Below, piece by piece: positions 30,507 through 43,389 of a stretch of 64,000 nt of DNA. The stretch is from Halomicrobium urmianum (GTDB taxonomy: Archaea; Halobacteriota; Halobacteria; Halobacteriales; Haloarculaceae). Made by a program: the position numbers and the translations under genes. The notes beneath the pieces were generated by a model. It was not told where the DNA came from. It saw only the letters and a list, made by a program, of their open reading frames with translations, and searched no databases. The DNA lies in the NCBI RefSeq assembly GCF_020217425.1, contig NZ_CP084090.1, positions 3,162,001 through 3,226,000 of the forward strand, in the 5' to 3' direction. The stretch's first letter is position 1. Each line of letters starts with the position of its first letter.

Positions 30507-31925
30507 ATGCACGAGACCAGCGATCGCGATCGAGGCGCACAGCACGCGAACGACCAGCCGCGGACGACGACGGGCAGACGGGAGTTCGTCAAGCTCGTCG
30601 GCGCGGGAGCGACGGTGGGGGCGCTCGGTGGATCGACGCTCGGCACGGCTGCGGGGCTGCCGGGGGATCCGACGCCGCGGCTCCACCGGGACGGCAACGT
30701 CGTGCGCGATCCGAGCGGCAACCAGGTGACGCTCCACGGGCTGAACGTCGTCGACCCGCGGCGGGCGAACGCGAACGTCGACTGGACGCTGCCCATCGAG
30801 GACCTGATCGAACTCGCGACGAACCCCGACGAGGGCTGGAACGCGCAGGTGATCCGCCTCCCGCTCCAGCCCGTCGACATCGCCGACCCGACGGGCGACT
30901 ACGGCGAGCCGGAACCGGGTAACTTCGATCAGACCCGACTGGAGTCGTACCTCGAGAACCACGTCGACAGCGCCGTCGAGGCCTGCAGGGAGCGCGGCGT
31001 CTACTGCATCGTCGACTATCACCGCCACCGGACGACCGACTTCACCACGGCAGCCCTGGACGAGGAGGTCACGATGTTCTGGGAGACGGTGGCGCCGCGG
31101 TACGCCGAGGACAGCCACGTCCTCTACGAGGTGTACAACGAACCCATCGGCGCGAACCGGGGCGGCTACGGCTCGGACCAGGCGGAACAGAGCTTCCTGC
31201 GCTGGCGGGAGACGGCCCAGCAGTGGGTCGACGTCATCCAGAACGAGGCGCCCGAGGCCCCGGTCATCGTGGGCTCGCCCAGCTGGTCGCAGTACACCTA
31301 CCTCGCCCCGGACAACGAGTTCGAGGGTGACAACCTGATGTACGCCGGCCACGTGTACGCCCATGAGTACCTCCGGCCGCTCTCGGAGTCGTTCGGTGCG
31401 CCGGCCGAGGAGGTGCCCGTGTTCATGACGGAGTGGGGCTTCGACTCCACGGGCGGCAGCGAGTCGCACCTCAACGGGACGGTCGACACCGAGGGCGAGC
31501 AGTTCCAGTCGTTCTACGAGGAGTACGACCACGTCCACTCGACGGCGTGGATCCTCTCGCACTTCTGGAGCCCGACGATGGTCGACGAGAGCTACGAGGT
31601 CGCCACGGAGTACGGGAGCCTCGTCCAGGACTTCCTCGAATCGAAGGCAGACGTCCAGCGGCCCGGCGACGGTGACAGTGGTTCCGACCCCGTCGAACCC
31701 CCGGAGGAGAACCGCCCGTCCTGGCCCGGGAACGCGACCGACCCGGACGGCGACGGCCGCTACGAGGACCTCAACGGCAACGGCGAGGCCGACTACTCCG
31801 ACGTCGTCGAGTACTTCAACGGCATGGACAGCGAGGGGATGCAGAACGACGTCCAGTACTACGATTACAACGGCAACGGCGACGTCGACTACGCCGACCT
31901 CGTCGAACTGTTCAACCAGATCTGA
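30507..31925 (+). CDS. Tat-exported GH5 glycoside hydrolase (cellulase-like) with C-terminal dockerin-like module
   Basis: 472 residues from MHETSDRDRG. Residues 24-50 are a twin-arginine signal (GRREFVKLVGAGATVGALGG). The GH5 barrel (about 55-385) has VTLHGLNVVDPRR, VDYHRHRT, the acid/base Glu in LYEVYNEPIG (E212) and the nucleophile Glu in VFMTEWGFD (E309). After an acidic linker, residues 410-472 hold two EF-hand-like dockerin repeats, DLNGNGEADYSDVVEYF and DYNGNGDVDYADLVELF, preceded by TDPDGDGRYE. The family is mostly beta-1,4-glucanase. A cohesin-like membrane protein is encoded at 36048-36890, so the enzyme may be tethered to the surface. Confidence 0.85.
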   Translation: MHETSDRDRGAQHANDQPRTTTGRREFVKLVGAGATVGALGGSTLGTAAGLPGDPTPRLHRDGNVVRDPSGNQVTLHGLNVVDPRRANANVDWTLPIEDLIELATNPDEGWNAQVIRLPLQPVDIADPTGDYGEPEPGNFDQTRLESYLENHVDSAVEACRERGVYCIVDYHRHRTTDFTTAALDEEVTMFWETVAPRYAEDSHVLYEVYNEPIGANRGGYGSDQAEQSFLRWRETAQQWVDVIQNEAPEAPVIVGSPSWSQYTYLAPDNEFEGDNLMYAGHVYAHEYLRPLSESFGAPAEEVPVFMTEWGFDSTGGSESHLNGTVDTEGEQFQSFYEEYDHVHSTAWILSHFWSPTMVDESYEVATEYGSLVQDFLESKADVQRPGDGDSGSDPVEPPEENRPSWPGNATDPDGDGRYEDLNGNGEADYSDVVEYFNGMDSEGMQNDVQYYDYNGNGDVDYADLVELFNQI

Positions 31926-32226
31926 TCGGGCCTGCAGCGGTCACGAACTGACCATCGCCCGGTCGCTGTCCGATCCCGGGGTAGAGGTCCACACGGTAGC
32001 CGACCCCTGATCGAGCAGACGTTCACCTCGGACGCTCGCGGCGACTACAGTTCCCTCTCAGGCTGAGATGACCAGCCGTGAGTGTCGATGGTCCCCCTCG
32101 ACAGGCCACGTTTGATATAGCGACATACAATTTACGTGTTGTGAGGGCGGCGGAATGTCACAGAATTATACTAAATATAAATTATAATAATGCCCGGTCA
32201 ACTGCGCGAGTGTCCCCGAACAGCGG
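31926..32226. other. AT-rich convergent intergenic region
   Basis: 301 bases between the convergent GH5 and integrase genes. Bases about 32110-32195 are markedly AT-rich (TTTGATATAG, then a run of ATTATA/AAATATAAATT repeats at 32164-32190) in a genome that is otherwise very GC-rich. It may hold the GH5 transcript end or an insertion target for the integrase. No gene visible. Confidence 0.4.
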
Positions 32227-33264
32227 TCACAGCAGCGAGTAGACGTTGCGCTCGTACACTTCCCGGACGCGGTCGCCCCAGTCGTGGGTGTAGGTGTCGA
32301 TGATGTCCTGGGCGACGTCGCCGCGGAGGTACTTGACGATGCCCCGGTCGCCGGTGCGGTCCCGGAGGTGCGTGGTGAAGAAGTGTCGGAAGTAGTGGGG
32401 CGTGACGTTCTCGGCGGCCCCGCCGCCGTCGCGGTACCAGCCCCGGTCTCTGGCGTGGCTCTCGACCAGGTGATGGACCATATCGGGCGTCAACCGCTTG
32501 CCCCAGTCACCGCTCGTACTGGTGAACAGCGGCTCGGCCCCGCTTCTCGCGTCCGGTCTGATCGCCAGCCACTCGCGGAGGACCGCAGCGAGTTCGTCGT
32601 CGACGGGAATCGTCGTGTCCCGCTTGCGCTTGTTCGAGGCCGTCCGCTCCTCGCCGTTGACGACAGCGCCGCGCGCCGGCGTCGACGAGACGAACAGCGA
32701 GTTCGACCGCCCCTCGATCTGGCCGCGAACGGGCGTCTCCGGGCCGACGCCGACGCCTTCGAGGTTGAGATCGCGACGATCGAGGTTGCACAGTTCCCCG
32801 ACGCGCATGCCCGTCTTGAGCAGCGTCACGACGACGGCCCGCTCCAGGGGATGCGTGATCGAACCGACGAACGCACGCATCTCCTCGACGCTGATCTCCC
32901 GGCGAGTGGGGTCGGTGTCGATGGTCTCGTCCATCTCCTCCATCACCAGCGTCATGGGGTTGGCGTCGAACGCGCCGACTTCGTTCATGTAGGCGTAGAA
33001 CCGATGGAGGTAGGAGGCGTAGGTCGCCACCGTCGACTCGCTCTTCTCGCCGCGGAGCTCGTGGACGTACGCCATGCAGTCCCGGTGGCTCGCGCTCTCG
33101 AGGGGGACCGGTCGGGCCCCCTCCGTGAGGAACGCCTCGAAGTCGCGCAGCACGCGCTCGTAGTACTGCCGGGTGCGCTCGGTCTTCCCGTGGTAGGTGA
33201 CGTCCTCGAGGAAGTAGGCGACGGGGTCCTCGTCGACCGCCGCCTCGTCGGCGCGGGAACTCAT
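32227..33264 (-). CDS. Tyrosine recombinase / integrase (XerC/D-like)
   Basis: 345 residues from MSSRADEAAVDED. The N-terminal SAM-like core-binding domain (about 12-105) is followed by the catalytic domain: TGMRVGELCNL (R154), HYFRHFFTTHL (H290, R293) and IIDTYTHDWGDRVREVY (nucleophile probably Y325). A Lys-rich hairpin NKRKRDTTIP supplies the catalytic Lys. All active-site residues are present. The ATG overlaps the DUF5805 stop by four bases, so both are made together. It could be the integrase of a decayed element or a resident recombinase. Confidence 0.85.
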   Translation of the reverse strand: MSSRADEAAVDEDPVAYFLEDVTYHGKTERTRQYYERVLRDFEAFLTEGARPVPLESASHRDCMAYVHELRGEKSESTVATYASYLHRFYAYMNEVGAFDANPMTLVMEEMDETIDTDPTRREISVEEMRAFVGSITHPLERAVVVTLLKTGMRVGELCNLDRRDLNLEGVGVGPETPVRGQIEGRSNSLFVSSTPARGAVVNGEERTASNKRKRDTTIPVDDELAAVLREWLAIRPDARSGAEPLFTSTSGDWGKRLTPDMVHHLVESHARDRGWYRDGGGAAENVTPHYFRHFFTTHLRDRTGDRGIVKYLRGDVAQDIIDTYTHDWGDRVREVYERNVYSLL

Positions 33265-33674
33265 TCGATCGTGTACCCCCCGTTGCGTCCACTGTAGCGG
33301 ACCTCGTCTCTGGACTGGAGGTCCTGCAGCGTCTCCTCGAGTCGATCCTCGACGTTCTCGGTCAGCGCGGCGACGAGTGCGTCCCACTCGTAGAACTCGC
33401 CGTCGGAGAGAATCTCCAGAACCCGGTCTTCCAGACGCTCACCCCTGGGGTCAGGGCCGGAAGGCCGGCCTTCGTCGGCGTCCTCCTGAGCGGCCGTCTC
33501 GTTGCGCTCTATCCCCTCGAATCCGCTCCGGCCGGCCTGAACCATCGATCGGACGAACTCGCTGAGGCTCATGTCCAGTTCGTCGGCGTGGCGCTTCCAC
33601 TCGTCTTTCTGATAGGCCGGGACGTACGTCTGCACCCGGGCCCGCGAGGTGTCGACGTCCTCCTCGGTCGCCAT
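33261..33674 (-). CDS. DUF5805 family protein, integrase partner
   Basis: 137 residues from ATG 33674; the frame also has a GTG at 33683. Residues 8-45 (RVQTYVPAYQKDEWKRHADE, then LDMSLSEFVRSMVQAGRSG) look like a ribbon-helix-helix DNA-binding unit. Residues 80-137 look like a winged helix (RVLEILSDGEFYEWDALVAA, then LEETLQDLQSRDEVRYSG). The four-base overlap with the integrase gene points to a joint role, such as a recombination directionality factor or repressor. Confidence 0.7.
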   Translation of the reverse strand: MATEEDVDTSRARVQTYVPAYQKDEWKRHADELDMSLSEFVRSMVQAGRSGFEGIERNETAAQEDADEGRPSGPDPRGERLEDRVLEILSDGEFYEWDALVAALTENVEDRLEETLQDLQSRDEVRYSGRNGGYTIE

Positions 33675-33714
33675 ACTCGTCACTCGGTCCCCGGATACAT
33701 GAATCTAACCCACG

Positions 33715-33861
33715 TTCACGGATAAGAGAGGTTATCTGTGGTAGTAACGTCCTATTTCACAGACCTCGGCCGACTTCTCCCGGGTTCGGCTCCGCATTAT
33801 GACACCACTTTCACGGATAAGAAATATCGACCGACGCTGGCCCGTGCTTGTGTTTATCTGT
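33715..33861. repeat. Repeated GATAA motifs upstream of the integrase operon
   Basis: TTCACGGATAAGA occurs twice exactly (33715-33727 and 33810-33822). Each copy is followed by a near-inverted partner: TTATCTGTG at 33732-33740 and TTTATCTGT at 33853-33861. The first pair is a near dyad (8 of 9 bases) around 33729. The set lies 40-190 bases upstream of the DUF5805-integrase operon, fitting operators for the DUF5805 protein or integrase arm sites. Confidence 0.5.
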
Positions 33862-34225
33862 CGTGGTCGTTCGGTCCGCTCCGAAACGCGCTCGGTCCTT
33901 GGCGCTACACGATGCTGTCGCTGTCACTTCGGACAGCGTGCCCGAAGCAGAGTCAGAAGGATCACCCCAGATCGGGACCGTCACAGAGTCGCCGATCCGG
34001 TGTATCCTCGGTGGCGGTCCGTCGTAGGCACGCCCCAGATTGTGCCGTGTCGCGTCGACCTCGATATCGTCGAACGTATGTCGGTCCGACATCGACTGAC
34101 GTCGTTCCGACCGTGTGGGCGGGCAGTCGAGCGGCGATTAGCGACGCCCAGTTCGCCGTCGAAAGCGGCTTCCGATCGAGTCGCCACCTCCGGCGACACG
34201 CTTCGCGGGCACTCGCGGGCCGTAG

Positions 34226-34306
34226 ACACGGCCCCAGGCCGTGTGTAGTGCTCCGATTCGGTGGTTCTCTGTGTGACCCTCACAGAGATTATCCCGCCTC
34301 AGGCGG
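34226..34306. other. Cluster of three perfect stem-loops
   Basis: Within 81 bases: ACACGGCC / GGCCGTGT (34226-34233 and 34237-34244, loop CCA), TCTCTGTG / CACAGAGA (34266-34273 and 34281-34288, seven-base loop) and CCGCC / GGCGG (34294-34298 and 34302-34306, loop TCA). They lie in the gene-free region. Such spacing suggests a structured RNA, but both strands are symmetric, so the sense is not known. Confidence 0.35.
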
Positions 34307-34918
34307 CCCTGACGGCCCTCCAGCAGTCGGACGCCGAATCGGCGGATCGCGGAGTGCGCCGACGTCCCGTCGTCGACGGACGACAGCAAGTCACGCACAC
34401 CCGGACGGTGCTCTGCTGCTCGATCTGAACGATCCAGTCCCACTCCGAGACAGCGACGGCGAGTCGACGGTCCCGCAGTCGGGGAGGAAGGGCTTCGCGA
34501 GTCGGACGGCGGGTTCTGCGACGCGTCCGCCCCGCCCAGGCGCAGTCGGGCCGACGCTCGGCGCGCTTCCGGCCGGTCCGCTCTGCTTGTTACCACGGCT
34601 GGCGACCGTCCCAGTCGACCCCGTGTCCGGCGCTCCTACCCCCCGGTCGACCGCCGGAACTGGCCACAGACCGGCCTCGAGTTCGCCCCAGTGGTTCGGG
34701 AGCAGTCCACTGCCGCCGGCGTGGGATCGAGCTGAGGCGGTGCTTCGTTCCGCCTGGCGAAAACCGATGTGGGACCCGGTTGCGAGACCGGTCCGACGGA
34801 TTCGGGGTGGTAGTCTCCGAGAGTGACTGGGCCCCCGTCATCCCGGACGGAGCCCGACGTCTCCCTTTCGCCCTACTCGTCGTCGGGGGGAAGGAATCTC
34901 CCGGTCGGCGTTGAGTTC

Positions 34919-34981
34919 TCCGGGCGTCCGGCGACAGCCCGGACGGAGGTATGCCGGAGACCACGAAACCGGCCGTCCGGG
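34919..34981. other. Overlapping, mutually exclusive inverted repeats
   Basis: TCCGGGC (34919-34925) can pair with GCCCGGA (34937-34943). CCCGGACGG (34938-34946), which shares those bases, can pair with CCGTCCGGG (34973-34981). Only one stem can form at a time. A further GC stem (GGGAC / GTCCC flanked by G/C runs) is at 34991-35015. Confidence 0.3.
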
Positions 34982-35728
34982 AACGCTACGGGCCGGGACC
35001 GCTGTCCCGGGCCCCCTCGCGCCCGCTGCCGGCCGGTTAGGTGGCTCGATTCGGTACGCGACGCACCGGCGAGGTCGGCGCGCACCGGGCTACCCAGTCG
35101 GCCGAACACCACAACGGAGACCGGACTGGGGGACTCCTCGTCGAAGCCGTTCGGGACCGCAGACCAGTCGTGGCGGGGGCTTCGTCCCACTATTCGACGC
35201 AGACCGTCGGCGAGCGATGGCACCGGGCGAGGGTACGCGACGCCCGTCGTCGCGGGCGAGTAGCGAGGCTCGGTCGACGGGCTGGAACGTGGGTTCCGTG
35301 CCGCTACCAGCGGCGGCCGAAGAGCGTCCGGGCGAAGGCGTCCGCTGGCCTGAGGTAACCGGACCGGAGCGTCCGGCAGGAACCTTCACTCCGACAGGCG
35401 TGGGGGAACCCGGCGACGCATCACCTAGACGAGCGGCGGCCGTGACGTCGATAGGCCAGCCGGGGCCGAAGACGCAACTCGACGACGGTACGGTGGCCTC
35501 CGGTTATCGTGGCGGGGATCGCTCGGTTGTCGTACCGCGGACGCTTCTGACGAGGCCGATCGAGGTAGTCGCGACCACCGGTCGTGTCTCGAGCGCTCCC
35601 TCCCGAATCGGTGGCGTACCTAGCTCTGCCCTGCCAAACATGTCATACGTCGGTGGTTTCCCGAACAGCCGGATCGCCAGCTGACGTACACATAAATCAC
35701 ATGCCGCTATATCATTTTCCACACGACT

Positions 35729-35747
35729 GGCAGGGAATCTCCCTGCC
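35729..35747. other. Stem-loop after an AT-rich promoter-like patch
   Basis: GGCAGGGA (35729-35736) and TCCCTGCC (35740-35747) flank the loop ATC. Immediately before it is an AT-rich stretch (about 35690-35718, CATAAATCA, CTATATCATTTTC) of the kind used as a haloarchaeal promoter. It may be the start of a short RNA, or a terminator read from the minus strand. Confidence 0.3.
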
Positions 35748-36047
35748 CGTTCACCGTCCCGAAAGTCCCGTCCTCAGAGCCCAACACCGGCGTCGCCGCT
35801 TTCGAGGGTCCCGGAGAACCGGGCTGCCGTCGCCGCGCCGGTAGCGACGCTGTGTCCGCACCCGCTGGAGGAGTGCCAGATCGGATTCGTCGAGTGCTGC
35901 CTCGAGCTACCGGCGGACCTTGGGGCGGTCTGAGCGCTCGAGGGAGGCGATCGCAGGAGATCCGACGGATGGCCGTTCTATCCCAGGCCACTCGCTCGTC
36001 TCGCTTGTGGGCTCACCCCCGCTCAGACGCCGAGAGAGGCCGCCCGG

Positions 36048-36890
36048 TCATCCTCGGACGCTCCAGTATACGGCCCCCGCGACGGCGAGCAGGGCGACGA
36101 TTCCGGCGACGACCGCGAGCGTCGGTATCCCGCTCTCGGACTGCGACGGCGTTGCCGTCTCGGTCGGCGACGGCGCGCCACCGCCCGTGGACGTCTCGTT
36201 CGCGGCGGTCGTCGCCGTCGGCGTGTGCGTGTCCGTGGCCGTCGGGGACGCCGTCGGCGTGGGGGTAGCCGACGGCGTCGGGGACGCCGTCGGTGACGCC
36301 CCGTCGTCGGAGCCCGAGCCGTCAGAGCCAGAACCGTCGTCGCCGTCGTCACCGTCGCCCGAGTCCGACTCGTCACCGCCGTCCGCCCCACCTCCCTCGG
36401 TCGGCGTCGATCCGGAGCCGACTGTCAGCGTCCGGCCCTGCGTGTCTGCCACGTCGTAGGAGCGCCCCTGCTCGTCGCCCAGGGCGGCGACCGAGAGGGA
36501 CAGCCGCGCGACGCCGTCGCGCTCCGTGCGCACGGTCACGGTCGCTATGTCCACGGGACCGTCGTCCAGCGTGTCCATCCCCGTCGCGGAGAGGTTCACC
36601 TCGTCGGTCCCCGTCGGCTCGTTCGCGTGGGCCGGGTCGTCGGCGTAGTCGACGGCCCGGACGCTCGCGACCGAACTGTCGTTGGTCGACACGGTCGCCT
36701 CGAAGGACCCGACGCCGCCGGCCGCCTCCCCGACGACGTCGTACGTGACGCTGGCACCCAGTTCGACCGCGTCGTTCTCCGGCGATAACATCACGTCCGT
36801 CGTCCCGGCGGCTGCCGCCACTCCGGCGGCTGCGGCCGTCAGGACGGCGAGTGCGACCATCCCCGCTCCGACGGTGCGCGTTAATTCCAT
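36048..36890 (-). CDS. Membrane-anchored cohesin-like domain protein
   Basis: 280 residues. A signal peptide (1-28, VGAGMVALAVLTAAAAGVAA) is followed by a beta-sandwich domain (about 33-158). Its pattern ENDAVELGASVTYDVVG, GVGSFEATVSTNDSSVASVR, VDIATVTVRTERDGVARLSL and YDVADTQGRTLTV is that of archaeal and bacterial cohesin domains. Residues 160-250 are an acidic then Ser/Thr/Pro-rich stalk suited to glycosylation, and 255-277 is a C-terminal membrane helix. It would display one cohesin at the cell surface. It is divergent from the giant dockerin-bearing gene at 36950, and a dockerin-bearing GH5 lies 4 kb away. No cohesin-dockerin binding is proven. Confidence 0.75.
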   Translation of the reverse strand: MELTRTVGAGMVALAVLTAAAAGVAAAAGTTDVMLSPENDAVELGASVTYDVVGEAAGGVGSFEATVSTNDSSVASVRAVDYADDPAHANEPTGTDEVNLSATGMDTLDDGPVDIATVTVRTERDGVARLSLSVAALGDEQGRSYDVADTQGRTLTVGSGSTPTEGGGADGGDESDSGDGDDGDDGSGSDGSGSDDGASPTASPTPSATPTPTASPTATDTHTPTATTAANETSTGGGAPSPTETATPSQSESGIPTLAVVAGIVALLAVAGAVYWSVRG

Positions 36891-36949: not shown

Positions 36950-39900
36950 GTGTCTCAGGTGGCTGGAACGCAACGCGGACGGGGTGGCCGAGTGGAACTG
37001 GTGAGTGATCATCTCAGACCGGTGCTGGCGCTGGCACTAGCGGTACTACTCGTGACGAGTCCGATAGCGGCCGCCGTCCCCGCCGGCGCGCTGGCCACGG
37101 CGGGGAACGATGCGAAAGTGGGTAACGACGGCGGCGACGTCGGATCGGTCGGCAACGACGGGCCGGCCGTGACCCCGCCGGACGCTGTCGTCGGGTCACA
37201 GCGGCCGACCGATCCGGACGGCGACGGGCTGTACGAGGACGTCAACGGCGACGGCGACGTGAACGTCGTCGACAGCCAGGCGCTGCTGGCCCACCTCGAC
37301 GACCCGGCGGTCGTCGACCACGCCGGGACGTACGACTTCACCGGCGACGGGCGGACGGGGGCCAGCGACGTGCAGTGGCTCTACGTCCGCGCGGTCGGGC
37401 CCGACGACGAGGACGCCGACGGCGACGGACTCGACAACGAGCGGGAGGTCGCCCTCGGGACGAACGCTTTCTCGAACGACACCGACGACGACGGCATCTC
37501 CGACTGGGTCGAGACGGACGGCGGCCGGCCCGTCGACACGGACGCAGACGGCGTGATCGACGCGCGCGACAGCGACAGCGACGGGGACCGCGTACCGGAC
37601 CTGCGGGAGGGGACAGACGACACCGACGGCGACGGTCGGCCGGACTACCGCGACGTAGACGACGACGGCGACGGGGTGCCGACGCGGATCAAGGTCCGCG
37701 ACGGGGCGAACTTCTCGCACGACGTCGACTTCGACGGGACGCCGAACTGGCGCGACGCGGACGCCGACGGCGGCGGCGCACCCGACGGCGAGGAGGGGAC
37801 CGGCGACGCCGACGGCGACGGGATGCCGAACTACCTCGACAACGACCGCGACAACGACGGCCTCCCCGACGGCTACGAGCGCAACGTCACCGGGACGGAT
37901 CCCGCCGACAACGACAGCGACTCGCCGAAGACGGACTACGACGAGGCCGACAACGGCGTCATCGACGGGATGGAGGACCACGACCAGGACACCCTGGGGA
38001 CCTACCGGGAGTACACGCTCGGGACGGATCCGTTCGACGACGACACGGACGGCGACGGACTGACGGACGGCTTCGAGAGCCGCTATCCCGAGTTCGATCC
38101 GCTGGCCGAAGACACGGACAGTGACGGCATCCTCGACGGGGCGGCCGACCCGGACGGCGACGGCCTCGACAACGCCGCCGAGGACGCCAACGGGACGCGG
38201 TTCGACGTGGCCGACACGGACGGCGACGGGCTGACGGACGGCCGCGAGGTGGAACTCGGGACCGACCCGACCGTGCGCGACTCCGACGGCGACGGCCTGC
38301 CCGACGCGGAAGAGCTCGAGCTGGGCACCGATCCGCTCGACGAGGACACGGACGACGACGGCGTCCTCGACGGATCGGAGACGTTCGAGACGACGGCCGA
38401 CGACGAGGAGACCGGCGTCTCCGTCGCGCTGCGGGGCGGCGGCGACGTCGCCGGCGACGTGACCGTCGAGCCGAAGCCGACCTACTTCGGGGGGACGAAC
38501 GCAAGCGCCGGTCCCACGGTCAGGGTGATCAACCGGACCGACTTCGAGAACGCGACCGTCGCCATCCCGATCGACGACGGGGCCCCCGAGTCGGTATACG
38601 ACGACCTCTCCGTCTACAAGTGGAACGGCTCGGCGAACGACACCTGGACGCCGGTGGAGACGACAGTCGAGAACGGGATGGCGCGGGCGACGGTCGATTC
38701 CTTCTCGTACTTCACGGTGCTCGACGCCGACGAGTGGGTCGACGCGACGAACCTCGACCTCGGTGAGATAGTCAGTCTCAACGAGTCCGGCAACGTCACG
38801 TGTACGGACGCCTGCGAGACGCGCAACGGCACCACGCTCGTGCTGGGCGGCGAGCCCACGGCGCGGAAGATCACCGTCGAGCAGGGCGACCGGACGTTCG
38901 ACGTCGTCCCGCTGAGCAACGGCCAGACCATCGAGAACTTCTACGACTACGGCGACGCCGAGATCAACTCGCCGCTGCCGGTCGCCAAGAGCGACACGAG
39001 CAGGCTGTTCTTCTGGTCCGGTCCGGACGGTCTGAGCCTCGTGCTGGTCCACGACAAGCCCCGCGACGGCTCCGGAGCGGCGGTCTCGTTCGACATCACG
39101 GACCTGCCGACCGGCGAGGGGAACTGGGTCGTCGAGGACGATCCGAACGACTTCCACAGAGACGCTGCCAGACCGACCGCGCCCGACTGGACGTGGTCCA
39201 GCGACAACACCGACGGCGGGGCGTTCCGCGGCGGCCTGACCAACGCTTCGATCACTATCGATCCGAAGTTCAACGGGGCGGCAGATCGGAGTCCGCTGAC
39301 GTCGGGGCGGCTCGACGGCTGGGAGGTCCTGACCGGCCGGGCGACCGATCCGCGGAACCACTCGCTGGCCACGGACGAGCCGATCACCGTCCACGTGCCC
39401 GACGACCCCAGCGAGAACGAGTCCGGGAATGCGACCGCGCCCGGCGACTCCGGGTCGGCCTCGCTGACCTACGACCTCGAGCGCGGGACGGACGACATCT
39501 CGATCGTCTACCAGTCCGAGCAGACGGACGTCTCGCCCGGCGCCAGCGTCACGGCGACCGGGCCCAACGGCACGACGGTCTCGCAGGACCTCTCTATCGG
39601 CACCGTCGGCACCGTCATGGAGACCCTGAACGTCTCCGAACTCGACCACGGCGAGGTCGACGTCGACGTCGCGGCCGACGGCGTCAACCTGCGGACGCAA
39701 CTGGTCGCGCGGGAGACGTTCGACGCGGACGGGGACGGCATTCCCGACGCCGTCGAGGAGCAGCACTGGACGATCCCGACCGCGAGCGGCGGGACCTTCT
39801 CGACGTCGCCGACGAACGCCGACAGCGACGACGACGGCATCCCCGACGGCGAGGAGGTCGAGTTCAAACGCGAGGTCATCGACGGCGAACTCCGGACCAC

Positions 39901-40144
39901 ACTGGCCGTCGTGCGGTCGGATCCGACCGAGGTGGACAGCGACGACGACGGGCTGACCGACCCCGAGGAGAACCGCGGGTGGGACACCCACCTCGCGATC
40001 AACGTCGGCCAGGCCGAGGCGTTCGTCGAGGCGCGCAAGAACGGCGGCGACGCCCTCGGCGCGCTGTTCCACCAGAACATGAGCGCCGACCCGCTGCAGG
40101 CGGACGCAGACGGGGACGGGCTGACCGATCCGGAGGAACGGTGA
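36950..40144 (+). CDS. Giant exported protein with dockerin-like module and thrombospondin type-3 repeats (N-terminal part of a candidate polymorphic toxin)
   Basis: 1064 residues to an in-frame TGA at 40142-40144. The start may be GTG at 36950 or GTG at 37001. A signal peptide (about 19-45, VLALALAVLLVTSPIAAAV) is followed by a dockerin-like pair (87-149: DVNGDGDVNVVDSQALLAHL and DFTGDGRTGASDVQWLYVRA). Next come about ten Asp-rich D-x-DGDG Ca-binding repeats (155-480), then beta domains with N-x-S/T sites (480-960) and more D-x-DGDG repeats (970-1064). The last repeat is cut at DPEER, and the same frame resumes at once with LGLNPNVADSDGDGVPDGEE. The TGA therefore falls inside a repeat, as a nonsense change would. 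The cohesin-like gene is divergent. Confidence 0.75.
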   Translation: MSQVAGTQRGRGGRVELVSDHLRPVLALALAVLLVTSPIAAAVPAGALATAGNDAKVGNDGGDVGSVGNDGPAVTPPDAVVGSQRPTDPDGDGLYEDVNGDGDVNVVDSQALLAHLDDPAVVDHAGTYDFTGDGRTGASDVQWLYVRAVGPDDEDADGDGLDNEREVALGTNAFSNDTDDDGISDWVETDGGRPVDTDADGVIDARDSDSDGDRVPDLREGTDDTDGDGRPDYRDVDDDGDGVPTRIKVRDGANFSHDVDFDGTPNWRDADADGGGAPDGEEGTGDADGDGMPNYLDNDRDNDGLPDGYERNVTGTDPADNDSDSPKTDYDEADNGVIDGMEDHDQDTLGTYREYTLGTDPFDDDTDGDGLTDGFESRYPEFDPLAEDTDSDGILDGAADPDGDGLDNAAEDANGTRFDVADTDGDGLTDGREVELGTDPTVRDSDGDGLPDAEELELGTDPLDEDTDDDGVLDGSETFETTADDEETGVSVALRGGGDVAGDVTVEPKPTYFGGTNASAGPTVRVINRTDFENATVAIPIDDGAPESVYDDLSVYKWNGSANDTWTPVETTVENGMARATVDSFSYFTVLDADEWVDATNLDLGEIVSLNESGNVTCTDACETRNGTTLVLGGEPTARKITVEQGDRTFDVVPLSNGQTIENFYDYGDAEINSPLPVAKSDTSRLFFWSGPDGLSLVLVHDKPRDGSGAAVSFDITDLPTGEGNWVVEDDPNDFHRDAARPTAPDWTWSSDNTDGGAFRGGLTNASITIDPKFNGAADRSPLTSGRLDGWEVLTGRATDPRNHSLATDEPITVHVPDDPSENESGNATAPGDSGSASLTYDLERGTDDISIVYQSEQTDVSPGASVTATGPNGTTVSQDLSIGTVGTVMETLNVSELDHGEVDVDVAADGVNLRTQLVARETFDADGDGIPDAVEEQHWTIPTASGGTFSTSPTNADSDDDGIPDGEEVEFKREVIDGELRTTLAVVRSDPTEVDSDDDGLTDPEENRGWDTHLAINVGQAEAFVEARKNGGDALGALFHQNMSADPLQADADGDGLTDPEER

Positions 40145-41806
40145 CTGGGACTCAACCCGAACGTCGCTGACTCCGACGGGGACGGGGTCCCCGACGGCGA
40201 GGAACACGAGGGCGACGGCGACCCGGCGATCCACGACCACGAGGCCCCGACGGTCCACCCCTACGAGGTCGGTGCGAACAACGTCCAGCGGACGAGCTAC
40301 ACGGTCGAGGTCGGCGTCAGCGACCCGAGCGGGTTCACGACAGTCGAGTTCCACAAGAAGGGCAATTGGCAGGTGCAGATCACCGAGGACGCGGAGACGG
40401 CCGACACCTACCGCCGCACCTTTAGCGTCGACCGGGGCTACCTCGACCAGATCTTCACGGGCGTCAGCAGTTTCGTCACCCCGGCAGACGTCGACGTGCG
40501 GACCGTCGACGTCCACGGCAACGACGACCACCGCACGCTGCAGGGGCCGGACGGCTTCGGCGAGGTCGCGCGGACGTACGACCAGCTACCGATCGAGGCC
40601 AGCGAGACGGGCTTCGTCGGGCTGATGAGCTTCTCCTCCGGGGTGACGACGGTCGCCGGCGAGGCCATCTTCGGCATCGTCGAGATGCTCACCAACCCCG
40701 TGCAGTACGCCCAGCAGATGATCCAGTTCACGGAGATGATCGCGAACAACCCCTCGATCATCACGAAGTTCCCGGGGATGATGGCCGAGCAGATCAGCCA
40801 GCAGCACGAGACCCGCAATCCGTTCGACGGCGGCGACGAGCACTACGCCACCTTCGGCGGCGGCTGGTCGTTCGGCTACGCGACTGGGACGGTCGCGCCC
40901 GCGGCGGCCTCCGGCGGCGGGAGCGTGCTCCAGAAGGGGCTGAGCAGCTCCCGGAAGCTCCAGCGGCTGGTCGACGCGGCCGACTCGGCGGTGCCCTCGC
41001 GGACGCCGACCGCGCTGCGGCCGGGCGTGCTGCGGCGGGCGGGCAAGATCGACCGGCGGCTGCCCGACGTGAACGTCCGAACGGGGACGCTGAGCGCGCG
41101 GCTGAACGACCTCCCCGGGCCGAAACGGCAACAGGTCGTCGACCAGTTCGACGAACTGGACGACGGGACGAGGCAGTATCTGGGCCGGTCTGACGTCGAC
41201 GCGCCGGCCAGCGAAGCGGCCGACCTGTTCCGCAACGCCGGGCCGAGCGGCCGGCGGGCGCTGAGGGAGGTGTCGGACGTCGACGAGGAGGCGGCGGACA
41301 TCCTGTTAGAAATCGACGACGCGAACACCCAGCGGCGTTTCGTGCGGGCACTCGAGAACGGTGAGGTCGACGAGACCGAGCTGGCGAGCGCGCTCCGCCG
41401 CTACGACACCTACGATTCTGACGGACAGCGATTCGCCAGCGACGTGATCAAACAGACCGGGGACGACGGTCCCAGGTTGCTCTCGACCGACGTCTGTAAT
41501 AGCCCCTGTCACGGGACCGTCCGCGCCGTCTACGAGTACACCGACGGCTACAACGGAGTAACGCTGTCAGACCGAGAAGCGAAAGACCTGCTCCAGGCGT
41601 ACGACGAGGCAGATGATATAACGGATCGCCCCGGCGCGAACGGACCGGGAACCGTGCAGGAACGACTCAATGAGCTCGGCACGAGGAACGACGGCGGCGA
41701 ACGGGTCGACGGCGTCGACCGGAGCATGAGGTCTGTTTCGGGCGACGGGAGCGGTTACGCAGAAATCGCCGGAGAGACGAGGATCGCCTCCGACGCACTC
41801 GACTAG
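40145..41806 (+). pseudogene. In-frame continuation of the giant protein: pretoxin-like region
   Basis: Codons 1066-1618 of the same frame as 36950, between the TGA and a TAG at 41804-41806. It finishes the Ca-binding repeats, has an Ig-like strand set (about 40250-40420), then a hydrophobic helical part: GFVGLMSFSSGVTTVAGEA, FGIVEMLTNPVQYAQQMIQF and GGGWSFGYATGTVAPAAASG. Gly/Ala helical stretches of this sort precede toxin domains in bacterial polymorphic toxins. The rest (40960-41806) is a charged helical domain with one pair of Cys (CNSPC). Translation could restart at internal codons such as GTG 40373, but no promoter is visible. Confidence 0.55.
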
Positions 41807-42217
41807 GGATCCGTCAGCAAAGGCGAGGTCCACCTCCAGCGAGAGATTGACTCAAGCGACGTACCGAACAGTCTCTCGAAGTCCAGTTCCGAGGTTGACG
41901 TGGAACTTGACTCGGAGGTCACGATCGACGACGAGACGTTCGATTCGCCAGCGATGGAATCGAAGAACTACGACCCAGATGCTTACAGTGAGTCGTTCAT
42001 CGAGAACGTCTTCGCCGAACGCGTGAGCGCGAAGTTCGCCGCGCAGGCAGGAGCCGGGAGAGACGAACTCGTGCTTGTCGTACCCGATGATTTCAAAAAC
42101 ACTTTCAGCGATGAACTAAGCGGAATACCCGATACGGTTCAACGCAGACTGAACAACAACGGTGTGAACGCAGATCCACGAGTGGAAATAGTGACATACG
42201 ACGACATAGGTACCTGA
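41807..42217 (+). pseudogene. In-frame C-terminal candidate PD-(D/E)XK nuclease toxin domain
   Basis: 136 codons after the TAG, still in the frame of 36950, ending at TGA 42215-42217. Landmarks in order are KGEVHLQREI (helix Glu), SSEVDVELDSEV (Asp), MESKNYDPDAY (E-x-K), then helix FIENVFAERVSAKFAAQAGA and strand DELVLVVPDDF, ending VEIVTYDDIG. E...D...E-x-K with following alpha-beta-beta elements is the restriction-endonuclease-like fold pattern. It is read as the C-terminal toxin of the giant protein. The DNA is richer in A and T than the flanks, as is common for exchanged toxin tips. A shorter frame starts at GTG 41900. Confidence 0.55.
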
Positions 42218-42219
42218 AA

Positions 42220-43389
42220 ATGCCCAACGGTATCGCAGTGATCGAGTGCTACGCGTCTCGTCCGCCAGAGAACGTGCTGGACGTCGCGTTCACAAGCGCC
42301 GAGTTAGCGGGGTTTGCGACTGACGAGGCCCGGGAAAATGCACAGGCAGGAGCCGACAATGCGACTGTCTTCAACGTCAGTTACGGCTCGCAGAACTTCC
42401 GCTTCTTTTTCACCCTGGACGAGGACCGGAGCCCCGGGAACCCGCTACTTCGGGTAGACTGTGACGAAGCGATCTACCCGTCGGAGGCAGACAGTGAGGC
42501 TGCCTACCGAGACCTGATGGATGCCCTGTTCGAACTACTCTGCCGGCTTGCTGTCGGCCTGAACGTCGACTACGCCGCTCTGTTCAATCCCGAAAATCGC
42601 AACGCATTGGCGCATAGCCGACCATTCGACGACGGTATATCCGAACTCCCTCGCCTGGGGATCTACGCTCAACGAGTCGTCGACCAGTTCGGTGGTATAG
42701 ACGCGATGTTCGACTCTCCGCCGTGGTACACGGCCGAATTAGACGAAGACAAAACCGTAATCGCCGACGCTGAATCGGGATGGCTCGACGGGCCGTGGCA
42801 ACCGCCGACAGAGGCACCGTATCTCGTCGATGCCCGCTTCGACACTACCGCGACACCGGCCGTCGATCGGGAGTTAGCCGATCCGTTCGGGTCGTTCGCG
42901 ACGGGGGCTTACGGGGCAGATCTGTGCGTTCCGCGGGAGCAGATTGGGCCCGAGTTCCGCAACGAGGACCTCGAGCTGGTCCGCGCGTACGTCGACGAGC
43001 AGCGGGACCTGCGACGCGTCGCGGACGACTCGTTCGTCCGCAACGTCGTTACCGATACCACCTCGGACAACGTGGAGGTCGTCAAACAGCAGTTAGCCGA
43101 GGTTCCCGCGGACGCGAGAGAAGGTGATTTGACGGTCTCCACGCTGCTGCCCGGAGCGATTCCGCCATCGTTCGTCCGTCTGGACGAACCCGACGGGGAG
43201 AACGTCGTCACCCGCGTGATGAATCTGGACGTCGACACGAACAAGGTCGAACTGCTGATCTCGCTGGGACGGGCGGCCCAGCACGGTGACGGAATGGACG
43301 TCGCCACGATCGAGTCGGCACTGGACGAACTTGCCGGCTTGGAAGACAGCGACGTCGTCGAACGCTGGATCGAACGGGAGTTCCTCTGA
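42220..43389 (+). CDS. Candidate immunity protein for the toxin
   Basis: 389 residues. Its ATG is two bases after the toxin stop, the position of immunity genes in polymorphic toxin loci. The protein is acidic and soluble, with no signal peptide or membrane helix, as needed to neutralise a nuclease in the cytoplasm. It may be two modules: 1-220 (FNVSYGSQNFRFFFTLDEDR, then YAALFNPENRNALAHSR, then PPWYTAELDEDKTVIADAES) and 220-389, ending in a helical VATIESALDELAGLEDSDVV. I recognise no family. The role is inferred from location only. Its start region has more A/T than the flanking genes. Confidence 0.6.
   Translation: MPNGIAVIECYASRPPENVLDVAFTSAELAGFATDEARENAQAGADNATVFNVSYGSQNFRFFFTLDEDRSPGNPLLRVDCDEAIYPSEADSEAAYRDLMDALFELLCRLAVGLNVDYAALFNPENRNALAHSRPFDDGISELPRLGIYAQRVVDQFGGIDAMFDSPPWYTAELDEDKTVIADAESGWLDGPWQPPTEAPYLVDARFDTTATPAVDRELADPFGSFATGAYGADLCVPREQIGPEFRNEDLELVRAYVDEQRDLRRVADDSFVRNVVTDTTSDNVEVVKQQLAEVPADAREGDLTVSTLLPGAIPPSFVRLDEPDGENVVTRVMNLDVDTNKVELLISLGRAAQHGDGMDVATIESALDELAGLEDSDVVERWIEREFL

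Follow-up and report, generated by a model that had tools for sequence, protein, structure and literature searches.

The window analysed here is a stretch of 64,000 nucleotides from the haloarchaeon Halomicrobium urmianum. On its forward strand, the reading frame 30507-31925 encodes a 472-aa GH5 glycoside hydrolase with a Tat-type signal (RREFVK) and a C-terminal dockerin of the 'VV' type. The catalytic domain covers residues 110-350 (30834-31556; PF00150, E 1.9e-26 in a Pfam scan), and NEP and TEWG motifs were seen by eye in the translation. The dockerin (31737-31922) consists of a DPDGDGRYED extension followed by two complete Ca loops, DLNGNGEADYSD and DYNGNGDVDYAD. Relative to the Pfam cut-off for Dockerin_1 (PF00404) of 22.9 bits, it scores lower when the whole protein is scanned with hmmscan (20.5 bits) and higher in a PF00404 search of the genome (26.4 bits). 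These matches bear out the initial annotation, which had read the gene as a GH5 enzyme with dockerin-type C-terminal repeats.

The cohesin stalk and its giant neighbour

A membrane protein carrying a cohesin on a glycosylatable stalk had been placed about 4 kb from the enzyme, and both the spacing and the architecture are correct. Encoded on the reverse strand at 36048-36890, this protein reads as a signal peptide, a single cohesin-like module (36414-36803), a low-complexity Ser/Thr/Asp/Pro-rich stalk (36123-36413) and a predicted C-terminal transmembrane helix (36060-36122; GIPTLAVVAGIVALLAVAGAVYW), with stalk and helix identified by eye in the translation. One integrase gene and one DUF5805 gene lie between it and the GH5 gene. 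The protein has no match in Pfam, where the cohesin model PF00963 gives none at E ≤ 1. Its module was assigned to a cohesin subgroup, group I, from a profile match, a subgroup tree and PDB profile matches. It reaches 139-141 bits against profile A1, of which it is itself a row. A profile of 76 haloarchaeal relatives finds cellulosomal cohesins in the PDB (5lxv, E 1.3e-4), and scaffoldin cohesins make up 9 of the 11 PDB matches of the all-module profile. The group I profile alone gives weak PDB matches (E 0.02-0.14) and is related to that of group II, the better-recognised cohesin subgroup (hhalign probability 99.4%, E 6.5e-22). An AlphaFold2 model of the window cohesin, made from 4 sequences, has a mean pLDDT of 36, too low to be of use. 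A search of viral contigs for these cohesins found none.

A giant dockerin-TSP3 gene on the forward strand (36950-42217) starts at a distance of 60 bp and is transcribed divergently from the cohesin gene. It occupies one frame in three parts (36950-40144, 40145-41806 and 41807-42217), open apart from a TGA at 40142-40144 and a TAG at 41804-41806. Uninterrupted homologues of 1716, 1820 and 1885 aa are found at L046, L048 and L064, respectively. Given the two stops, the product in this genome may be limited to the 1064-aa dockerin-TSP3 part. A Pfam search of the C-terminus for a toxin tip gave no match. The gene directly downstream (42220-43389, forward strand) resembles the genes that follow the giants at L046 and L048. 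Its product has no match in Pfam or NCBIfam and is possibly a partner of the giant, for example an immunity protein.

The giant's dockerin (37208-37393; DVNGDGDVNVVDSQALL, DFTGDGRTGASDVQWLY) is of the 'QQ' type and has the highest PF00404 score in the genome search, 33.5 bits, with a second Ca loop that deviates at positions 3 and 9. This stronger dockerin, encoded next to the cohesin gene, had been overlooked in the initial annotation. Like the GH5 dockerin, it combines two F-hand Ca loops with a genome-search score above the PF00404 cut-off, as in type I dockerins. The initial annotation had proposed a comparison of the two. They are of different types, 'VV' and 'QQ', and 34% identical in the alignment; the GH5 dockerin is 60-89% identical to the other enzyme dockerins of the same genome.

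Orthologues of the 36048-36890 protein occur at L046, L047, L048 and L064. In all, five genomes encode a cohesin of the window type next to, and divergently from, a giant dockerin-TSP3 protein, and in the four besides this one no glycoside hydrolase was noticed at the locus. The giant is likely to be the ligand of the neighbouring cohesin.

Cohesins and dockerins across haloarchaea

Among 116 Halobacteriales genomes, 45 carry cohesins, 45 carry dockerins and 34 carry both (Fisher p 8e-11). At 45 of 65 cohesin loci a PF00404 dockerin lies within 3 kb, where uniform placement would give 1.0. In Halococcoides cellulosivorans, 17 cohesin modules stand against 71 dockerin matches, of which one is marginal; all nine of its dockerin proteins that were scanned have a glycoside hydrolase domain match. 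In a genome of another family, a three-cohesin scaffold is encoded amid three GH-dockerin genes, an independent scaffold cluster with glycoside hydrolases (L084).

Two groups, I and II, emerge from the cohesin tree, with the window cohesin in group I; the deepest fork of the tree has an SH-aLRT support of only 84% and is drawn open. Dockerins with Q14 in repeat 2 adjoin group I cohesins, the group found beside 'QQ' dockerins. The 'VV' type of the GH5 dockerin occurs beside group II cohesins, which include those of a five-module scaffold. The Q14 rule was derived post hoc. A simpler rule, any Q at position 14 of either repeat, was rejected as it leaves 11 discordant loci (eight group II with Q, three group I without), and a whole-sequence Mantel test was therefore used instead. 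Here, cohesin type follows the type of the adjacent dockerin with r 0.78 over 60 loci and 0.59 for distant pairs. Species history is addressed solely by within-genome swaps, under which the matching gives p 0.0016 in six genomes.

This evidence bears on two alternative explanations. The first takes haloarchaeal dockerin-like ends to be stand-alone Ca-binding, stabilising or substrate-binding modules that have no cohesin partner. Haloarchaeal dockerins, where mentioned, have indeed been read as substrate-binding (PMC10963439, PMC13260240), and 11 of the 45 dockerin-positive genomes lack a cohesin match at the threshold used; a deeper cohesin profile leaves ten of these without a match and gives one marginal match. 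The caution in the initial annotation that such repeats often have no known cohesin partner holds in part. Dockerins, however, strongly co-occur with cohesin-like modules, adjoin them and match them in type, and multi-cohesin proteins stand beside dockerin enzymes, which makes stand-alone modules an unlikely explanation.

The second alternative concerns the cohesin side. Single modules have weak Pfam scores (11 of 76 match PF00963 at E ≤ 0.1), and the weak PDB matches of the cohesin profiles include integrin, CBM2-like and sliding-clamp chains, as could be expected if the modules were generic adhesion or spacer domains of beta-sandwich type, clustered with other secreted proteins and playing no plug-and-socket role. 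We regard this as slightly less probable still. Cohesins are the top PDB match for every cohesin profile used, and type matching persists under within-genome swaps. Moreover, PKD modules, which are also surface beta-sandwiches, almost never adjoin dockerins: when the coordinates of about 150 PKD-module matches listed in the same genomes were compared by eye with those of the dockerins, one lay at a distance of 3 kb or less.

Dockerin enzymes and scaffold elsewhere in the genome

The count of dockerin-like termini across the genome, proposed in the initial annotation, gave 16 full matches. Their cargo comprises five GH5 and three GH10 enzymes, a GH16 and others, with an apparent frameshift separating the GH16 and one GH5 from their dockerins. 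About 12 other GH5, GH10, GH16 and accessory proteins share the general dockerin type of the GH5 enzyme in the window. The genes are mostly scattered over the genome; frameshifts affect several of them (L054, L055, L056). An initial PF00963 search of the genome returned a single match, later one of at least 10 cohesin modules. With about 16 dockerins and this number of cohesins, the 'minimal' set envisaged at the outset does not describe this genome.

About 0.8 Mb from the GH5 gene and outside the window, C1:2396.1-2399.1 kb (L053:11102-14107) encodes a 1001-aa scaffold with five group II cohesins and a diverged dockerin of its own. It adjoins two more GH5-dockerin genes and a single-cohesin membrane protein (C1:2399.4-2400.0 kb); another such protein is encoded at C1:1746.8-1747.4 kb. 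By reading, these single-cohesin proteins end in a membrane helix or a PGF-CTERM-like C-terminus. The N-terminal domain of the scaffold has no match in Pfam or the PDB, and a carbohydrate-binding module (CBM) there, which we had considered, was not demonstrated; the scaffold of genome G133 has a sub-threshold CBM5/12 match. The genome holds two features of a cellulosome, several dockerin-bearing glycoside hydrolases and, outside the window, a multi-cohesin scaffoldin.

Two putative systems and their relation to known cellulosomes

The initial annotation had joined the GH5 enzyme and the window cohesin into one set, and this pairing is probably wrong. Such a minimal one-cohesin surface tether would have in its favour that both modules are present 4 kb apart and that their sequences are compatible with cross-type binding. 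It nevertheless appears unlikely, as the GH5 dockerin resembles the enzyme dockerins of the genome far more than that of the giant, the window cohesin belongs to the group found with 'QQ' dockerins, four other genomes keep cohesin and giant with no glycoside hydrolase noticed there, and the same genome has a GH-linked group II scaffold. The original proposal stands in its general form: a surface-tethered, polysaccharide-degrading cohesin-dockerin system has good support, both in this genome and across the clade.

We consider it quite probable that the window instead holds one member each of two separate systems. The analysis shows module architecture, gene neighbourhood, co-occurrence and module-type matching; from these we infer binding, export, anchoring and assembly. 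The GH5 enzyme would be exported by Tat and plug its 'VV' dockerin into group II cohesins encoded elsewhere, with the five-cohesin scaffold as the predicted receiver. The scaffold's own dockerin may in turn be held by the two single-cohesin membrane proteins. Since about 12 GH5, GH10, GH16 and accessory proteins share the general dockerin type, they would be expected to assemble into a cellulosome-like complex on the surface. In the second system, the single-cohesin stalk 36048-36890 would hold the divergently encoded giant at the surface.

More broadly, we favour, with somewhat less confidence, the view that haloarchaea have true cellulosomes, i.e. multi-enzyme complexes against plant polysaccharides that are carried on scaffolds, anchored in the membrane and built from type-matched pairs, plus a second, orthogonal set for the display of giant proteins. 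The clearest case would then be Halococcoides cellulosivorans. If true, haloarchaeal dockerins would have found their missing partner, and it would become clear how cell-bound enzymes can attack insoluble polysaccharide in saturated brine. Protein engineering would gain cohesin-dockerin pairs that tolerate salt and differ in specificity.

Published cellulosomes come from bacteria and fungi. In archaea, a survey of 2010 did not find any of their components (PMC2838879). Work on haloarchaea that degrade cellulose or mannan leaves the organisms' own cohesins or scaffoldins unmentioned (PMC10267330, PMC10963439, PMC13260240), and neither kind of protein is described for haloarchaea in the literature searched.

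The X82 module of Clostridium perfringens NagJ (2jh2, 2ozn), which is cohesin-like and has a dockerin partner, is one of the best PDB relatives of the window cohesin's subgroup; unlike the modules here it is bacterial, and the matches are weak (E 0.04-0.05). Archaeoglobus fulgidus resembles the present case in having archaeal cohesin and dockerin modules, which are few and not known to be linked to polysaccharide enzymes. Their specific binding is cited in PMC9012536 as reported by Bayer 1999 and Haimovitz 2008. ANME archaea have scaffoldin-like proteins that, as here, combine a dockerin with cohesins, up to five in number (PMC9012536). Their common cargo consists of ABC-transporter binding proteins, whereas here it comprises glycoside hydrolases, PhoX phosphatases and giant surface proteins.

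Compared with the CipA-type cellulosome of Clostridium thermocellum, the system proposed here is archaeal and halophilic, with Tat-type signals on enzymes and scaffold, an extra DPDGDGxYED segment in the dockerins, mostly scattered enzyme genes and no recognised CBM on the scaffold. Instead of SLH or sortase anchoring, it would use a membrane helix or a PGF-CTERM-like end. GH5 and GH10 enzymes with dockerin tails occur in both systems, as does a multi-cohesin scaffold bearing a diverged dockerin; the single-cohesin proteins here, predicted to be membrane-anchored, would add a further likeness.

The GH5 enzyme, the single cohesin and the giant protein

The GH5 gene of Halomicrobium urmianum (30507-31925) matches the Pfam family Cellulase (E 1.9e-26) and ends in a Dockerin_1 match, which scores 20.5 bits in the protein scan and 26.4 bits, above the cut-off, in the genome search. 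Both dockerin loops, DLNGNGEADYSD and DYNGNGDVDYAD, carry ligands at positions 1, 3, 5, 9 and 12, which bears out the two dockerin-type terminal repeats of the initial annotation. Haloarchaeal dockerins generally have an extra N-terminal segment, D-x-D-G-D-G-x-Y/F-E-D, ahead of the two canonical loops (31737-31772 in the GH5, 37208-37243 in the giant protein described below), which looks like an additional Ca site.

By reading, the protein encoded at 36048-36890 on the minus strand has a signal peptide, followed by one beta-rich module and a Ser/Thr/Asp/Pro stalk, and ends in a membrane helix. A Pfam scan assigned it no family. Orthologues occur in a close relative (G006), HArc-gm2, Haloarcula vallismortis and the MAG QS_6_64_34. 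A profile of 76 haloarchaeal modules, among which PF00963 is the commonest Pfam family (11/76), retrieves ScaC (5lxv, E 1.3e-4) and 2vn5 and 1g1k (0.011) from the PDB, scaffoldin cohesins making up nine of its 11 matches. The modules form two subgroups, whose profiles align at E 6.5e-22 (hhalign). Group II by itself finds 5lxv at 6.6e-6, whereas group I has weak PDB matches (E 0.02-0.14), the top five being a scaffoldin cohesin and NagJ chains; the NagJ module is cohesin-like. As AlphaFold2 reached a pLDDT of 36 with four sequences, the predicted cohesin fold of the window module rests on these profiles. The haloarchaeal profile and the predicted membrane helix agree with the single-cohesin membrane protein annotated near the GH5.

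On the opposite strand, 60 bp from the cohesin gene, starts a giant protein (36950-42217, plus), in which the genome's best dockerin (33.5 bits) is followed by TSP3 repeats. The gene is broken by a TGA (40142-40144) and a TAG (41804-41806); its homologues in loci L046, L048 and L064 of other genomes are open frames. Partial copies of the C-terminal region lie downstream in L046, which hints at a polymorphic toxin locus whose tips can be exchanged.

Cohesins and dockerins across Halobacteriales

Among 116 Halobacteriales genomes, 45 encode cohesins, 45 encode dockerins (PF00404) and 34 encode both, against 17.5 expected (Fisher p 8e-11). A PF00404 dockerin lies within 3 kb of 45/65 cohesin loci (1.0 expected), and the haloarchaeal dockerin profile adds dockerins at several of the remainder, e.g. 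L069, L101, L111 and L116. For PKD modules, a common surface domain used as a control, a by-eye comparison gave one dockerin neighbour among the roughly 150 matches listed. Of the 11 genomes with dockerins but no cohesin match, a deeper profile left 10 without one, the eleventh having a marginal match only; some haloarchaeal dockerins may therefore have different partners or none.

The cargo beside single cohesins is varied: giant TSP3 proteins, a PhoX phosphatase (L069), a PQQ beta-propeller (L085) and malectin-PKD proteins (L082, L127). Many haloarchaea keep a pair in which a ~880-aa protein precedes a single-cohesin protein whose end is PGF-CTERM-like or a membrane segment (L067, L068, L069, L102, L103, L106, L107, L111, L116). 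The profile detects a cohesin module in the ~880-aa protein, which Pfam identifies in L069 as PhoX alkaline phosphatase plus dockerin; the pair suggests a surface-tethered phosphatase.

Matching of dockerin and cohesin types

A tree of 114 cohesin modules separates group I (47 rows, including the window cohesin) from group II (67 rows, among them the five scaffold modules of the H. urmianum genome and its two anchors). In dockerins beside group I, both repeats mostly have D-x-Q at position 14, whereas beside group II this position is mostly V, I or D. Over 60 loci, distances between cohesins track those between dockerins (matrix correlation r 0.78, 0/5000 permutations as high; r 0.59 for distant pairs); partner swaps inside genomes reduce r (p 0.0016).

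By its sequence, the GH5 dockerin is of the kind found beside group II. In the alignment it is 60-89% identical to the other enzyme dockerins of its own genome but 34% identical to that of the giant. The proposal that the GH5 and the group I window cohesin form a minimal surface-tethered, cellulosome-like set is thus not upheld. Type matching instead places the GH5 in the putative scaffold system and makes the giant the putative partner of the window cohesin. A tyrosine recombinase and a DUF5805 protein are encoded between the GH5 and cohesin genes (32227-33674, minus), a mobile-element setting that could account for a chance closeness of the two.

Enzymes with a proposed scaffold and anchor

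The genome encodes 16 full dockerins by the haloarchaeal dockerin profile, in answer to the count proposed initially, and ten cohesin modules at E <= 1e-5. Dockerin cargo comprises GH5 (window, L053 twice, L056, L061), GH10 (L054, L058, L135), GH16 (L054), fn3, DUF1349 and proteins without family. The key locus is L053 (C1:2391-2400 kb), where all genes lie on the same strand and encode a GH5-dockerin, a GH5-fn3-cohesin-dockerin, a 1001-aa protein (1032 aa from the longest start) in which five tandem cohesin modules precede a C-terminal dockerin, and a single-cohesin membrane protein of 199 aa. Judged by domain content, the locus combines enzymes with a scaffold and an anchor. Another single-cohesin protein, ending in a PGF-CTERM-like segment, is encoded at C1:1746.9 kb. 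The five scaffold cohesins occupy other group II clades than the two anchors, and the scaffold's dockerin is unlike those of the enzymes (44% identical to that of the GH5). A two-tier assembly would fit this, in which scaffold and anchor cohesins would take separate dockerin kinds. Apparent frameshifts cut dockerins off from catalytic parts at L054:3532-4635, L055:5207-5878 and L056:5112-6969; these and the giant's two in-frame stops may reflect decay or assembly error.

Halococcoides cellulosivorans HArcel1 has 71 dockerin matches, one of them marginal. Of its 17 cohesin modules, many sit in multi-module proteins, one of which has a PGF-CTERM-like end; all nine dockerin proteins scanned have a GH domain match (GH5, GH10, GH39, GH43). 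In G133, a genome from another family, a three-cohesin protein that bears a Tat signal, fn3, PKD and a sub-threshold CBM5/12 is encoded among dockerin genes of the GH5, GH10 and GH5 families. In genomes of a genus group including Haloarcula vallismortis, operons (L127, L128) join a dockerin cargo with cohesin-cohesin-dockerin adaptors and a protein that has cohesin only. Operons of giant dockerin cargo, cohesin-dockerin adaptors and a cohesin-only protein were seen in L127, L128, L129 and L130, with malectin/PKD cargo in L127.

Haloarchaeal dockerins have been taken as substrate-binding (PMC10963439, PMC13260240), and neither dockerins nor cohesins appear in the main text of a comparative study of haloarchaea that degrade cellulose (PMC10267330). 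We found no report of an archaeal cellulosome in the literature searched, which covers subscription journals thinly, so that one may have been missed. Scaffoldin-like proteins occur in ANME archaea, but their cargo is transport-related (PMC9012536).
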